A stretch of DNA of 64,000 nucleotides from Deltaproteobacteria bacterium (GTDB lineage Bacteria; Myxococcota_A; UBA9160; UBA4427): assembly GCA_029261855.1 (NCBI GenBank), contig JAJDAN010000013.1, forward strand, positions 62,001 to 126,000. Direction: 5' to 3'. Shown one piece after another: positions 10,677 through 56,330 of this stretch. The translations under genes and the position numbers were made by a program. Numbering within the stretch: position 1 is the stretch's first letter; the number at the start of each line of letters is the position of its first letter. A model generated the notes under the pieces. It was not told where the DNA came from. It ran no database searches and saw nothing but the letters and a program-made list of their open reading frames with translations.

Positions 10677-11564
10677 ATGACAGATTCGATCGGCGTCCTG
10701 CATCCGGGCGAAATGGGTGCCCAGGTGGGTGCGTGTCTGAAGGCGTCCGGGTGCTCGGTCTTGTGGGCGCGCGAGGCGCGCGGGGATGCGACCGCCGAAC
10801 GCGCGCGTGCGGCCGGCCTGCAGGGCGTGGCAAGCCTTGCGGGTCTGGTGACCGCCTGCGAGCGGATCATCAGTGTGTGTCCCCCGAGCGCCGCCCTGGA
10901 CGTCGCGCGGGAGGTCCAAAGCCTGGGCTTCCGCGGAACCTACGTCGATGCCAACGCGATCGCGCCCGCAACGGTGCGGGCGATGGCCGAGCTGTTCGCC
11001 GGCTCCCCGGTGGATTTCGTGGACGGCGGGATCGTCGGGCCGCCGCCCGTGCGGCCGGGTCTCGCGCGCCTGTACCTGTCCGGGCCCTGCGCGCTCGCGG
11101 TGACCGACTGGCTCGCGGGGAGCGCGCTCGAGACCATCGTGGTCGACGGTCCGGTCGGCGCCGCTTCCGCTCTCAAGATGGCCTACGCAGCCTGGACCAA
11201 GGGCACGACGGCGTTGCTGGCCGCCGTCTATTCCGTCGCTCGGGAGGAGGGCGTCGGTCCGGCGCTGCTACGCGAGTGGGAGCGCTCGCAGCCGGGTCTC
11301 GTGGATCGCTTGCAGGGTGTTCCCCATGTCGTGCGCAAGGCCTGGCGCTTCGAAGGCGAGATGCACGAGATCGCGGACACTTTCTCCGCCGCCGGTCTGC
11401 CGGAGGGTTTCCATCGGGCGGCGGCCGAGGTCTACGCGCGGTTTTCCGAGTCCGCCGGGGCCGGACCCGACGCCGGCGCGCCCGGGCTGGACGAGTTGGT
11501 GGATCGGCTGGTTCGGCTTCCGTCGCAAGCGAAGCCTACGGCTTCGCCAGCTAGCGGGGCATGA
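10677..11564 (+). CDS. NAD(P)-dependent oxidoreductase, DUF1932 type
   Basis: 295 residues; ATG preceded by GGAGG. It belongs to the 6-phosphogluconate/beta-hydroxyacid dehydrogenase-like group with a C-terminal DUF1932 domain. The nucleotide-binding start is GVLHPGEMGAQVGACL, where HPGEMG replaces the usual G-x-G-x-x-G, as is normal for this subgroup. A strand-turn YVDANAIAPATVRAM and VDGGIVGPPP follow, then the helical half with ALKMAYAAWTKGTTALL. Lys in that segment occupies the usual catalytic-Lys position. The substrate is unknown. The tail overlaps the convergent caspase-type lipoprotein gene by 14 bases. Confidence 0.82.
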   Translation: MTDSIGVLHPGEMGAQVGACLKASGCSVLWAREARGDATAERARAAGLQGVASLAGLVTACERIISVCPPSAALDVAREVQSLGFRGTYVDANAIAPATVRAMAELFAGSPVDFVDGGIVGPPPVRPGLARLYLSGPCALAVTDWLAGSALETIVVDGPVGAASALKMAYAAWTKGTTALLAAVYSVAREEGVGPALLREWERSQPGLVDRLQGVPHVVRKAWRFEGEMHEIADTFSAAGLPEGFHRAAAEVYARFSESAGAGPDAGAPGLDELVDRLVRLPSQAKPTASPASGA

Positions 11565-13068
11565 AGACGATCTCGCCCGTTCCTTCCATCGTGCCGAACT
11601 GCGGTGTCTGCCGATTGCGCGAGGCGTTCGTCACCTGGGGGCGGACGTACGCGCCGATCTCGCTGGCGGTCACGGCGCCGTCGTGGTTGAAGTCGGCTTC
11701 GCCCTGCATCGCGCGCAGCAGATAGCTCGTGAACAGGCCCTGGCCACCGATTTCGATCGCTTGCTCGCCGTCCGCGCCGGCGGTGATGATCTGCACCGCC
11801 GGCACGCTGGTGATCTTCTGCAGGTAGACGTCGGGCGGACCGCCTCCCGGGCGCGTGATGCCGCGAGTGAGGGCGAGGCCCGAGTAGCAGGCGTCGATCG
11901 CGTAGTAGACGTGCTTCGCGGGGGTCCGCTTCGACAGGTCGCGGACCGTGTCCATGGAAATGGCGGTGGAGAAGACGTCGTCGGTGTCCCCGTCTACTGG
12001 GATCAGATAGCCGCGCTTGCCGCCGCCGGGCAGGGTTTCGGTTTGTCCGTGGCCGGCGAAGTAGATCATGGCGAGGGTCTGGTCATCGGTGATGCGTGGG
12101 AGCTCGGTGCCGAGCATCTTGAGCATGCGCCGGCGCGTTGCCTCGTCGTCGTAGATCTCGATGACCTCGTCCCATCCCTCGTCGCGTAGGAACTGTGCGA
12201 CCCGGCGACCGTCGTTCGACGCCCCCGTCAGACTGGGCCAGTGCTTGTACTCATTGATGCCGATCACCACCGCGACACGCTTCGAATAGAGACGACCGTC
12301 GCCGGCCTGGATCGTCACGGGCTTCCGTCTGCGAGACGCCTGGGGCGGAGGCGGGGTGTAACTGGGCGTGTAGCTCGGCTCGGGCTCGCCATAGGCGTCC
12401 GGGGGCGAGTCGTTCCGCGCCAGGGCGAGATTCGCCGGCGGCTTGACGCTGGCGGCGTCCATGCCCTGGACGTACTGCACGAGTCCCTGGGCGTCGAACT
12501 TCACGAAGGTCGCCTTGCGCCCCCAGTAGCGCCAGGAATTGGCCGCCAGGCTCGGGGTGCGGTGCTTGGGCGGGTACCCCATCGCGAGGATGATGCCTTG
12601 CCGGGTCATCCCGATGTACGGCCGTCCCTGCTCGATGCCGTACTGGTCGAGGGGGCTCATGGACGCGATCTGTTCCTTCGGGCAGCGGCTGCCGAAGTAG
12701 CGCGCGAGGTTCTTGGCGAACGGCTCGGAGGCGGCCTTGTGGTAGCGGAAGGAGTAGGGCTGGGGTGAGCCGGTGATCTTGAACGACATGCGCTTGCTGC
12801 CCAGCTCGGTGATCTGGACCTGGGTGCACACCCGGATCAGCTCGTCGCCCTGCCGGTTTACCGATGACAAGGTCTTCTTGCTCGCGTGGAGATTGACGAG
12901 GGTGACTGCGGTGCTGCCGACCGTGAGTCGGTTGCCGCTGTTGTCGACGATCACCATGGACCGGCAGCCGAGGGCGAGGGTCGCGATCGCGCAGACCGCG
13001 AGCGCGGCCCGCTGGAGCCGGCGCAGACGCGCGACTTGTCGGTCGATGGGGTGCTGCGTGGTGCCCAT
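11551..13068 (-). CDS. Lipoprotein: BamE/SmpA-like domain, proline linker, caspase-like domain, EF-hand-like loop
   Basis: 505 residues. A signal peptide with lipobox LALGC (Cys ~35) predicts an exported lipid-anchored protein. Around residues 150-215, IGMTRQGIILAMGYPPKH and SWRYWGRKATFVKFDAQG resemble the BamE/SmpA fold. A Pro/Tyr-rich linker follows (PSYTPSYTPPPP). Residues ~270-490 are a peptidase C14 caspase-like domain: KRVAVVIGINEY at the start, catalytic His ~338 in IYFAGHGQ, catalytic Cys ~393 in YAIDACYSG. Near the end DFNHDGAVTASE has the D-x-N-x-D-G spacing of a calcium-binding loop. Presence of both catalytic residues suggests an active protease. Only the caspase part is a firm family call; the BamE-like call is by pattern. 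Confidence 0.8.
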   Translation of the reverse strand: MGTTQHPIDRQVARLRRLQRAALAVCAIATLALGCRSMVIVDNSGNRLTVGSTAVTLVNLHASKKTLSSVNRQGDELIRVCTQVQITELGSKRMSFKITGSPQPYSFRYHKAASEPFAKNLARYFGSRCPKEQIASMSPLDQYGIEQGRPYIGMTRQGIILAMGYPPKHRTPSLAANSWRYWGRKATFVKFDAQGLVQYVQGMDAASVKPPANLALARNDSPPDAYGEPEPSYTPSYTPPPPQASRRRKPVTIQAGDGRLYSKRVAVVIGINEYKHWPSLTGASNDGRRVAQFLRDEGWDEVIEIYDDEATRRRMLKMLGTELPRITDDQTLAMIYFAGHGQTETLPGGGKRGYLIPVDGDTDDVFSTAISMDTVRDLSKRTPAKHVYYAIDACYSGLALTRGITRPGGGPPDVYLQKITSVPAVQIITAGADGEQAIEIGGQGLFTSYLLRAMQGEADFNHDGAVTASEIGAYVRPQVTNASRNRQTPQFGTMEGTGEIVFMPR

Positions 13069-52978: not shown

Positions 52979-53839
52979 TCAGCGCAGCCAGCCGGGCTGG
53001 CAGCCCGCGAGACGACATTCGGTCACGATCCCGTCGCGGAGGTAGGCGCGCTTCTTCTGCTCGTCGCGTTGCGCGGCGTCCAGCTGCTCGGGGAGTCCAC
53101 CGCAGGCGAGGGAGTCGGAACGGCAGCCACGTCGTTTCATGCGTTCGAGGATCTGCCGGCTCTTTCTTTCCGCCTGGGCGAGCTCCTGCTCGGCCTTGCG
53201 GTAGCGCGGCCCCCAGGTGGCGCGACCCTGCTCGAACTCGCGCGCGGCCCGGGCCTGGTCGTCGCGCAGGCCCCGCAGGCGGTCCCGGCGCATGTCGCGT
53301 CGCGATCGGATGTCGCGATCGCTGTCGTCCGCGTCCGCGAGGCTTGCCGGCGCGTTGCCGGTCTCGCGTTCGAATTCCGCGTGCGCGTCCTCGGCGCACT
53401 TCGCGAACGCCGGATAATCGGGGAAACGACCGCGGGCCCACCGCCGCTGGCAGGCGGTGTTCAGCCGCTCGGCGACGGATCCCATGGGCGCGTCCGCCAG
53501 CAGGTCCCGAACGGCGAAGACCGCGCGGGTGCTGTCCGCCAGGCAGGTGTCGAAGGCAGCGCCGCGCGGGGCGAAGCGCGACTCGCAGTGCCTGCGAACC
53601 CCGGTCAGGGCAGACTCGATGTCGAGGGGATCCGGGTACGTCTCGGATCCCCTCGAGGCGTCGCTGGGCGATGCCTTGCGGCTCAGGACTTCGGCGCCGG
53701 GCGGAAGGCTCGCGCCACTGCCCGCGAAGCCGACGCTGCCGTCGGCCCGCCGATAGCGGATCAGCTCGCCCGCCGGCACCGAGGTGCTCGTGAGGGCCGT
53801 CCCGACCAGGACGCAGAGAACGAGTGCGCGGCCACGCAT
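52979..53839 (-). CDS. Secreted cysteine-rich protein with DUF4124-like N-terminus
   Basis: 286 residues. Signal peptide GRALVLCVLVGTALTSTSVPA, then ELIRYRRADGSVGFAGSGAS, which resembles DUF4124 domains. Four to six Cys follow (RRHCESRF, FDTCLADS, NTACQRRW, AKCAEDAH) and a long charged helix (residues ~180-270; ARAAREFEQGRATWGPRYRK) with coiled-coil character, ending CGGLPEQL and CRLAGCQPGW. Unknown function. It follows the caspase-like lipoprotein gene by 47 bases on the same strand. Confidence 0.75.
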   Translation of the reverse strand: MRGRALVLCVLVGTALTSTSVPAGELIRYRRADGSVGFAGSGASLPPGAEVLSRKASPSDASRGSETYPDPLDIESALTGVRRHCESRFAPRGAAFDTCLADSTRAVFAVRDLLADAPMGSVAERLNTACQRRWARGRFPDYPAFAKCAEDAHAEFERETGNAPASLADADDSDRDIRSRRDMRRDRLRGLRDDQARAAREFEQGRATWGPRYRKAEQELAQAERKSRQILERMKRRGCRSDSLACGGLPEQLDAAQRDEQKKRAYLRDGIVTECRLAGCQPGWLR

Positions 53840-53886
53840 GTCCCTGCATCGACCGGTCCTGCAGGGCCCTGAAGTCCGGCCGCGAG

Positions 53887-55248
53887 TCAGTCCGCCGGGA
53901 CGAAGAGGAAGTCGCCTCCGGCGTGATTCGAGTCTCGGATGTTCGCGTATTCCGGCGTCTGGCTCGCGCCCGTCACCCGCTGCTGGATGCGCGCGAAGAG
54001 GGCGTTGCCGCCCAGGACCTCCCTGTTCTCGGACAGGGCCGCGAGGAACGCGCCGGTGAAGACCGAGTGCTCTCCGTCCGTACCGTCCTGCACCGGCTCG
54101 AGTCCGCCCGAGGTCAGCACGACCCGAGCGCGTAGCTTCGCGAGCTTGTCGCGCGCCGCGGGGTCGTTGCGTTCGAGGCCGGCTTCCCGGCGGTCTCCCG
54201 ACGTGAAGCAGCTGTCGGCCACCACCAGCACGTGTTTCGCCTTCATGTCGCGCAGGGTTGCGGCGAGGTCGTCGTTCGCGAGGCCTTCGCTCGGGTCGTC
54301 GCCCATGGCTTCGACGGGAATCCAGTAGCAGCGGCCCAGCTCGGCGCTCACGGTTCCGTGGCCGGACCAGTAGAGAAGGAAGTTGTCGTCCGGACGCAGG
54401 TCGCGTTGATATCGGTCGAGCGCTCCCAGCAGTGCCGATAGGCTGGGGTCCCGCAGGAGCGTGACCTCGAAGCCGTAGCGCTTCGCGAGCAGGGACGAGA
54501 CCGCGGCGGCGTCGTCGTCTGCCGTGGCGACACCGGGCAGGTAGGTGTAGTCGGCGCTGCCGACAACGAGCGCGCGATAGCGTCCGTAGCGACTCTTCTC
54601 GCTGGCGACTGGAACTCGCGGCCGTTGCGGTTCGGGTGTCGGGGGCAGGTTGGGAATCGCCGCCACCTCGGCGATCACCGGCGTCTCGGGTTCCGGCTTG
54701 TGGGCCTCGCGTGCGGAGAGGATGTGCCACGCGTCGGCCTGGGCGTCGAACCAGGTGACGTCGGCGGGGATCAGCGACTCGAAGCGAAGCTCGTTCCGAT
54801 CTCCCCGGGTCCTCAGCCGCAGGACACCGCCGTCGAGAGAAAGCTTGCAGCTTCGCCAGACCACCTCGTCTCCATCGAGCAGGGGCCGCCGGCAGCGGTA
54901 GCGGGTCGGCCCGCTCTGGTGGATGTCCGACGCGACCAGTGTGCCGTGACGCTCGTTCGGCCCGAGCCCGGTCTGCAGGTACATGCGGCCGCGCTCGATC
55001 TGCACGGTCCGCGGGACACCGTCTCCGTCCCACAGTTCCGCCTGGCGTCTCGCTTCTTCATCGTTCGCCAGGACGGCTTCTTCGTGCTGGATCTTCCACA
55101 GCCCGTCGATGGGGAGTCGTTCGCTCGCCCGGGTCGTATAGACGTCGGGGAGAGGCGGAGGCGGAGCGTCGCTCGCGCAGCCGACGGCGGCTGCCGTCGC
55201 GCACGAGAGCACGATCATGAGGATCCTTCGCGCTTCCGGGGATCCCAC
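53887..55248 (-). CDS. Caspase-like (peptidase C14) lipoprotein
   Basis: About 453 residues from GTG 55248, which supplies a positively charged signal start (EARRIL) before a lipobox AAAVGCASD. ATG 55218 has a better ribosome-binding site (AAGGA) but an uncharged n-region. The N-terminal half (~25-215) is a strand-rich domain of unknown family (QTGLGPNERHGTLVASDIHQ). The caspase domain starts YRALVVGSADYTYLPGV, catalytic His ~297 in LYWSGHGTVS and Cys ~346 in VADSCFTSGDRR. Both catalytic residues are present. Divergent from a secreted ankyrin protein and followed by a Cys-rich secreted protein. Differs from the caspase lipoprotein at 11551 in N-terminal domain. Confidence 0.8.
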   Translation of the reverse strand: MGSPEARRILMIVLSCATAAAVGCASDAPPPPLPDVYTTRASERLPIDGLWKIQHEEAVLANDEEARRQAELWDGDGVPRTVQIERGRMYLQTGLGPNERHGTLVASDIHQSGPTRYRCRRPLLDGDEVVWRSCKLSLDGGVLRLRTRGDRNELRFESLIPADVTWFDAQADAWHILSAREAHKPEPETPVIAEVAAIPNLPPTPEPQRPRVPVASEKSRYGRYRALVVGSADYTYLPGVATADDDAAAVSSLLAKRYGFEVTLLRDPSLSALLGALDRYQRDLRPDDNFLLYWSGHGTVSAELGRCYWIPVEAMGDDPSEGLANDDLAATLRDMKAKHVLVVADSCFTSGDRREAGLERNDPAARDKLAKLRARVVLTSGGLEPVQDGTDGEHSVFTGAFLAALSENREVLGGNALFARIQQRVTGASQTPEYANIRDSNHAGGDFLFVPAD

Positions 55249-55385
55249 CCGTGCAGCAGGCGCGTTCAACGGAGGCGGTCTCCGGTCAAGGGGGGCGGTC
55301 TAACGTAACGCTCCGACTTGCCAGCGCAATCGCGAGCGCCCTGATCTATCGTCGGCCGCTTGCAGGGGGCCATGTCGAAAGGGCC

Positions 55386-56330
55386 ATGAGGATGCGGGTT
55401 CGTCTCGAGTCGTGGTGCGTGCTGGTTCTGGCCCTGGGGCTGGGGCAGGTTGGGCTGGCCTGCGCGCAGGCCGAACCCCCGGCGCCGGACGCACTGCACC
55501 GGGCCGTCGAGGAGGAAGACCTCGGCCTGGTGCGCGAACTGCTCGCGGAGGGGGTGCCCGTCGATGCCCGCGACGCCCAGGGCGATACGGCGCTTCTGGT
55601 GGCGGCGCGATTCGGTTTCTGGCCCGTGCAGCGCGAGCTGCTGAAGGCGGGAGCCGACGCCGGCGCCACCGACGCGACTGGCCGGACCCCTCTGCATTGG
55701 GCGGTCTGGGGAGACAACAGCGTGCGCGGGCCGCTGCTGTTGCTCGAGCACGGTGCGGACCCGAATGCGCGGGACGCGGAAGGCCGGACGCCCATCCACG
55801 GCGAGCTCAACCGCAAGAACATGAGCTTGTTGATCGCGCATGGAGCCGATCTGATGGCCCGGGACGACGCCGGCCGAACGCCGCTCCATACCACCACGGG
55901 CTACGGTCGAGGCGGTGCGATGGTCGTCCTGGCGGAGCGCGGCGCGGATGGCAACGCCACGGACGGTGGCGGGCAGACCCCGCTGCACGTGGCCGCCTTG
56001 CAGGAGAGCACGGCACTGGCTCCGGTGTTGATCGGCGCTGGAGCCGACATCGACGCTCAGGACGCAGAGGGGCGCACGGCTCTGCACATCGCGGCGAAGT
56101 CCGGGCGTCGAGCCGTCGTGTTACAGCTGCTCGAGCTCGGGATCGATCGCGACCTGCTCGACGCGGAGGGTCGAAACGCCGAGCAGGTGGCCATCGAGGC
56201 GGGCAACAAGGTCAACAGCAAGGCGCTCTACAAGACCTCTGCCGCCTATCGCGACAGCGTGGCGGAGCAGGCGCGCAAGCGCGCGGAGTACGTGCGCAAG
56301 CGCCAGGAAGAGAAGCAGGCGTCGGAGTAG
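55386..56330 (+). CDS. Secreted ankyrin-repeat protein
   Basis: 314 residues from ATG 55386. Signal peptide MRMRVRLESWCVLVLALGLG with AQA as likely cleavage site. About seven ankyrin repeats follow, recognisable by G-x-T-P/A-L-H and L-L-x-x-G-A-D: GDTALLVAARFGFWPVQREL, GRTPLHWAVWGD, GADPNARDAEGRTPIHG, DAGRTPLHTTTGYG, GGQTPLHVAALQ, EGRTALHIAAKSG. The C-terminus is a charged helix (EQARKRAEYVRKRQEEKQAS). Ankyrins bind proteins; in the periplasm it could be a partner or inhibitor of the divergent caspase-like lipoprotein. Confidence 0.88.
   Translation: MRMRVRLESWCVLVLALGLGQVGLACAQAEPPAPDALHRAVEEEDLGLVRELLAEGVPVDARDAQGDTALLVAARFGFWPVQRELLKAGADAGATDATGRTPLHWAVWGDNSVRGPLLLLEHGADPNARDAEGRTPIHGELNRKNMSLLIAHGADLMARDDAGRTPLHTTTGYGRGGAMVVLAERGADGNATDGGGQTPLHVAALQESTALAPVLIGAGADIDAQDAEGRTALHIAAKSGRRAVVLQLLELGIDRDLLDAEGRNAEQVAIEAGNKVNSKALYKTSAAYRDSVAEQARKRAEYVRKRQEEKQASE

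Follow-up and report, generated by a model that had tools for sequence, protein, structure and literature searches.

The window, the whole stretch of 64,000 nucleotides that was analysed, lies on contig C13 of a 6.96-Mb genome. Three genes for exported proteins and the region between two of them are considered here:

52979-53839, minus strand: CYS, a secreted coiled-coil protein with 8 cysteines after the signal, as counted in the sequence.
53887-55218 (from ATG) or 53887-55269 (from TTG), minus strand: CASP, an exported caspase-type protease and probable lipoprotein.
55270-55385, no strand: the intergenic region shared by ANK and CASP.
55386-56330 or 55392-56330, plus strand: ANK, exported and probably a lipoprotein, with about 7 ankyrin repeats and, at its C-terminus, a charged tail.

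All three frames are open and have codon usage of the coding type, and each protein opens with a hydrophobic signal. CYS begins 47 bp past CASP on the same strand and is followed by purL, and the downstream neighbour of ANK is an alcohol dehydrogenase gene. An earlier note had described a lipid-anchored caspase-like protein, the second in the window, divergent from an ankyrin protein with its own signal and followed by a secreted Cys-rich coiled-coil protein. This description of the genes and of their positions is correct, and the first lipid-anchored caspase is the lipoprotein-like one encoded at 11551-13068 on the minus strand. That protein belongs to a subfamily whose relatives carry ankyrin fusions, its N-terminus differs from those of the ankyrin-fused relatives, and its neighbourhood is conserved in a sister genome.

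The CASP protein has 443 residues if it starts at the ATG at 55218 and 460 if it starts at the TTG at 55269. The TTG is probably the true start, since the sister genome has kept both this codon and its upstream DNA. The protein consists of a signal, a weakly calycin-like beta-barrel (residues ~38-150), a Pro-rich linker and a C14 domain (215-425). In a Pfam profile search CASP matched Peptidase_C14 with 73.2 bits (cut-off 21.4) and no other domain, and the NCBIfam family caspase_w_EACC1 scored 67.9 bits, below its cut-off of 140 bits. The catalytic dyad, His287 and Cys337, is invariant across 13 aligned sequences, as are Asp335 and Glu374. In paracaspases, residues like the latter two suit cleavage after Arg or Lys, and the same specificity is predicted for CASP by analogy with paracaspases and orthocaspases. 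The caspase domain was modelled with a pLDDT mostly of 80-94, and its nearest solved folds are MALT1, yeast metacaspase (Yca1) and GSU0716 (E 1e-10 to 1e-8). The closest is the paracaspase MALT1 which, unlike CASP, is eukaryotic and cytosolic and has other accessory domains.

The N-terminal ~110 residues of CASP form a beta domain that recurs in the orthologue of the sister genome and in four other relatives or paralogues. A weak model built from 6 sequences (pLDDT 66) has at least 8 strands and a C-terminal helix. When this model was used in a fold search nearly all of the top 50 hits were lipocalin/FABP-like, the best with an E value of only 1.5e-3, and the calycin identity of the domain is only a lead. 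The same barrel, as weakly modelled, is common to the caspase lipoproteins CASP, L084, L087, L095 and L083. It may be a sensor for a hydrophobic ligand or a built-in inhibitor.

ANK matches the Pfam profile Ank_2 with 148.8 bits (cut-off 27.3) over several repeats, and its start at 55392 is better spaced from a GGG stretch than that at 55386. Lipid anchoring was judged by the pattern [LVI][ASTVI][GAS]C after a hydrophobic segment. The lipoboxes of CASP (AVGC) and ANK (GLAC) are both off this consensus. The Cys is retained in the sister genome in both proteins, as ALGC in CASP and as LPSC in ANK. Because the Cys at the end of its signal is conserved in both species, ANK may carry a lipid anchor and not just be secreted, and the two signals indicate that CASP and ANK are probably both lipid-anchored in the envelope.

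The sister genome is a Myxococcota MAG of the same genus (JANQSB010000668.1, IP29b_bin.86) and the only other genome of the genus that was compared. It has the order ANK, divergent CASP, purL. Its CASP is 71% identical to that of the window, and of its ANK only the 5' part is present as the gene is cut by the contig end. Ankyrin frames on contigs C58 and C562 were considered as the remainder of this gene and rejected, since judging by gene content they do not seem to continue it. The DNA between the two genes is also conserved. Positions 55270-55372 are 70% identical, compared with 41-57% in the flanking stretches that code for signal peptides, in this comparison of two sequences. The alignment contains gaps of two bases, which suggests that the stretch is not translated in the ANK frame. 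A promoter scan of the region found no sigma-70 consensus site and nothing above chance. A search of the GTDB class (91 genomes) found no orthologue beyond that of the sister genome, and none of the other class I caspases among 80 named loci lies beside a separate ankyrin gene. Within the sample the two-gene form is thus known from two genomes of one genus.

The two domains occur together more widely as fusions. When ankyrin frames were sought by HMM in 120 caspase loci (a regular-expression pattern had missed most fusions), all of them lay in the caspase's own reading frame except for ANK and its sister copy. In total 16 proteins were found in relatives that carry ankyrin repeats and a caspase in one exported chain, in the order signal, ankyrin repeats, linker, caspase. 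Three belong to the subfamily of CASP itself. L161, from a Proteobacteria MAG, shares 47% identity with CASP in the caspase domain and has a lipoprotein signal, five ankyrin repeats, a Pro-rich linker and the caspase. L129, from Desulfobacteraceae (40% identical), and L096, from the same GTDB family as the window genome (44%), have a similar architecture; the ankyrin match of L096 is weaker and falls just below the Pfam cut-off. The remaining 13 fusions belong to a second subfamily (L102-L108, L202 and L203) and come from the same GTDB family and one order-level relative. Both domains exceed the Pfam cut-offs in L161, L129, L107 and two proteins of L202. The fusions start with a hydrophobic signal of the export type, which is short for L102a and L202b at the chosen starts, and they contain about 3 to 10 repeats. 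In L093 (6542-7594), another subfamily member, Sel1 repeats, confirmed by Pfam, stand where the ankyrin repeats would be, and a caspase of the same subfamily with Sel1-type repeats in place of ankyrin was also read by eye in L092 (6969-8000). Several genomes of the family have two genes for exported ankyrin–caspase fusions in tandem (L102, L105, L106, L202 and L203, where a contig end cuts the second copy), and such tandem fusions may act as a pair.

Ankyrin and caspase became associated more than once, as fusions occur in two caspase subfamilies. For 128 caspase domains, the tree requires at least 9 changes of the ankyrin label, which points to repeated gain or loss of ankyrin. Among the ankyrin frames listed for the window's own GTDB family, 12 of 67 are fused to a caspase against ~0.02 expected, an enrichment that overstates their independence since many of the fusions share descent. 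Across 284 sampled genomes of the phylum, those of the listed matches that span repeats and caspase all fall within the same family, and the subfamily II caspases listed from outside it mostly lack the repeats in their match.

CYS has a different set of relatives. It has no Pfam or NCBIfam match and thus does not match DUF4124 (PF13511), whereas L050, which shares its C-terminus, does. The N-terminus of CYS is similar to those of DUF4124-like secreted proteins, and its C-terminal motif EC..xGC.PGW.R is found again in numerous small secreted proteins of the order. These relatives sit away from caspases, including in the window's own genome, and several adjoin another DUF4124-like gene. In L041, L044, L046, L048, L049, L050 and L051, small secreted DUF4124-like proteins that end in this motif are encoded beside a longer DUF4124-like gene, and such pairs form a paired family of the order.

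In the survey of prokaryotic Peptidase_C14 proteins by Asplund-Samuelsson (2012, PMC3501461) an N-terminal signal or transmembrane segment is common, and the word ankyrin does not occur in its text. CASP shares the C14 domain, the His/Cys dyad and the N-terminal signal with these orthocaspases and metacaspases, but it has an ankyrin partner that is encoded apart and its N-terminus is weakly calycin-like. A footnote in a 2014 survey of ankyrin proteins (PMC3932732) lists one with a Peptidase C14 domain, Desti_1504; the open-licence literature was searched, and other accounts of such fusions may exist. Desti_1504 and the fusions described here (L161, L129, L096, L102-L108, L202 and L203) have the same two domains as ANK and CASP, and those inspected also share their exported-type signals. 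The fusions are single polypeptides, whereas the window has two divergent genes and so does not encode a fusion. A periplasmic ankyrin protein encoded beside an enzyme that it supports is known from Pseudomonas aeruginosa, where AnkB supports KatB. KatB, however, is a catalase and CASP is of the protease type. A polymorphic toxin–immunity pair of the Imm-Ank kind was rejected, as no delivery domain was found in CASP and the gene order is divergent. An anti-phage defence system was rejected because the PADLOC matches reflect just the caspase and ankyrin domains. A phage origin was rejected as well: CASP and CYS have no PHROG match and ANK has only repeat-type matches of unknown function.

The presence of the same two domains in one chain in exported relatives suggests that ANK and CASP work together, and the fusions, as read from their sequences, support a real partnership of ankyrin and caspase in the envelope. 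The interpretation put forward here, which we consider to have about an even chance of being correct, is that ANK and CASP together represent, as two genes, an exported ankyrin–caspase protease which is a single chain in relatives. CASP has its own N-terminal domain instead of repeats, so the pair is more than a fusion cut in two. The earlier note had proposed a periplasmic protease-regulator module of three proteins. A shared compartment and a functional link between ANK and CASP are upheld by the conserved pair and the fusions. The membership of CYS is not: the neighbourhood of ANK and CASP is kept in the sister genome, where the CYS gene is absent between CASP and purL, and CYS relatives lie elsewhere.

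Could the arrangement be fortuitous? Unrelated exported genes may have come to stand head to head in one genus by chance and been inherited so, with the fusions reflecting a general mobility of ankyrin repeats. This explanation is possible although we find it somewhat doubtful. It is favoured by the restriction of the pair to one genus and by the presence of ankyrin proteins in at least 24 of the 30 genomes of the GTDB family. It is also favoured by the synteny of the two genomes around the window's other caspase, which makes the conservation of ANK and CASP by itself weak evidence. However, the window's genome has 6 caspase matches and at least 4 listed ankyrin open frames, and the chance that any caspase here has an ankyrin neighbour is only ~0.7% (6,500 genes assumed; listed ankyrin frames). 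Chance also fits poorly with a conserved intergenic region and with caspase fusions that are far above expectation and occur in two subfamilies.

ANK could instead have a dedicated role as inhibitor or immunity protein, bound to CASP and keeping it inactive until it is needed. Human caspases are inhibited by designed ankyrin repeat proteins (PMC10707025), and Imm-Ank immunity proteins exist in toxin systems (PMC3482391). We judge this role to be improbable for ANK. CASP has no toxin delivery domain in Pfam searches and the genes are divergent rather than co-directional. Docking or sensing is preferred over inhibition because the repeat number of the fusions varies, unlike a fixed inhibitor surface, and because the L093 caspase has Sel1 repeats in the same place. 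A three-part module in which CYS is a substrate, chaperone or redox-controlled partner draws on the position of CYS close behind CASP on the same strand and on its export signal. It is very improbable given the sister genome and a family that is found apart from caspases. For the same reasons, its absence there and its DUF4124-like kin located elsewhere, CYS is probably a bystander outside the pair.

How would a two-gene ankyrin–caspase protease work? Going by their signals, ANK and CASP would both be exported and probably held in the envelope by lipid anchors. The caspase domain of CASP, with its dyad intact, would act on envelope proteins and probably cut them after Arg or Lys. The ANK solenoid would serve for docking or sensing, bringing substrates or a ligand to CASP or gating it, and would play in trans the part that the fused repeats have in cis. 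Expression of both genes from one divergent intergenic region, as its conservation suggests, would keep the two together. We tentatively suggest an envelope protease of two components: a caspase that binds a ligand and is anchored by lipid, and a separate ankyrin receptor, likewise lipid-anchored, that directs it. It is conceivable, and no firmer than that, that exported ankyrin–caspase proteases make up a broader class, so far little described, of which this would be one form.

Few bacterial caspase homologues have a known trigger or substrate. With the two halves encoded by separate genes, the ankyrin half could be removed or restored while the protease is left untouched, so that the function of the repeats can be addressed directly. 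The locus and its fused relatives point to caspase-type proteolysis in the cell envelope, and not to cytosolic cell death or phage defence.
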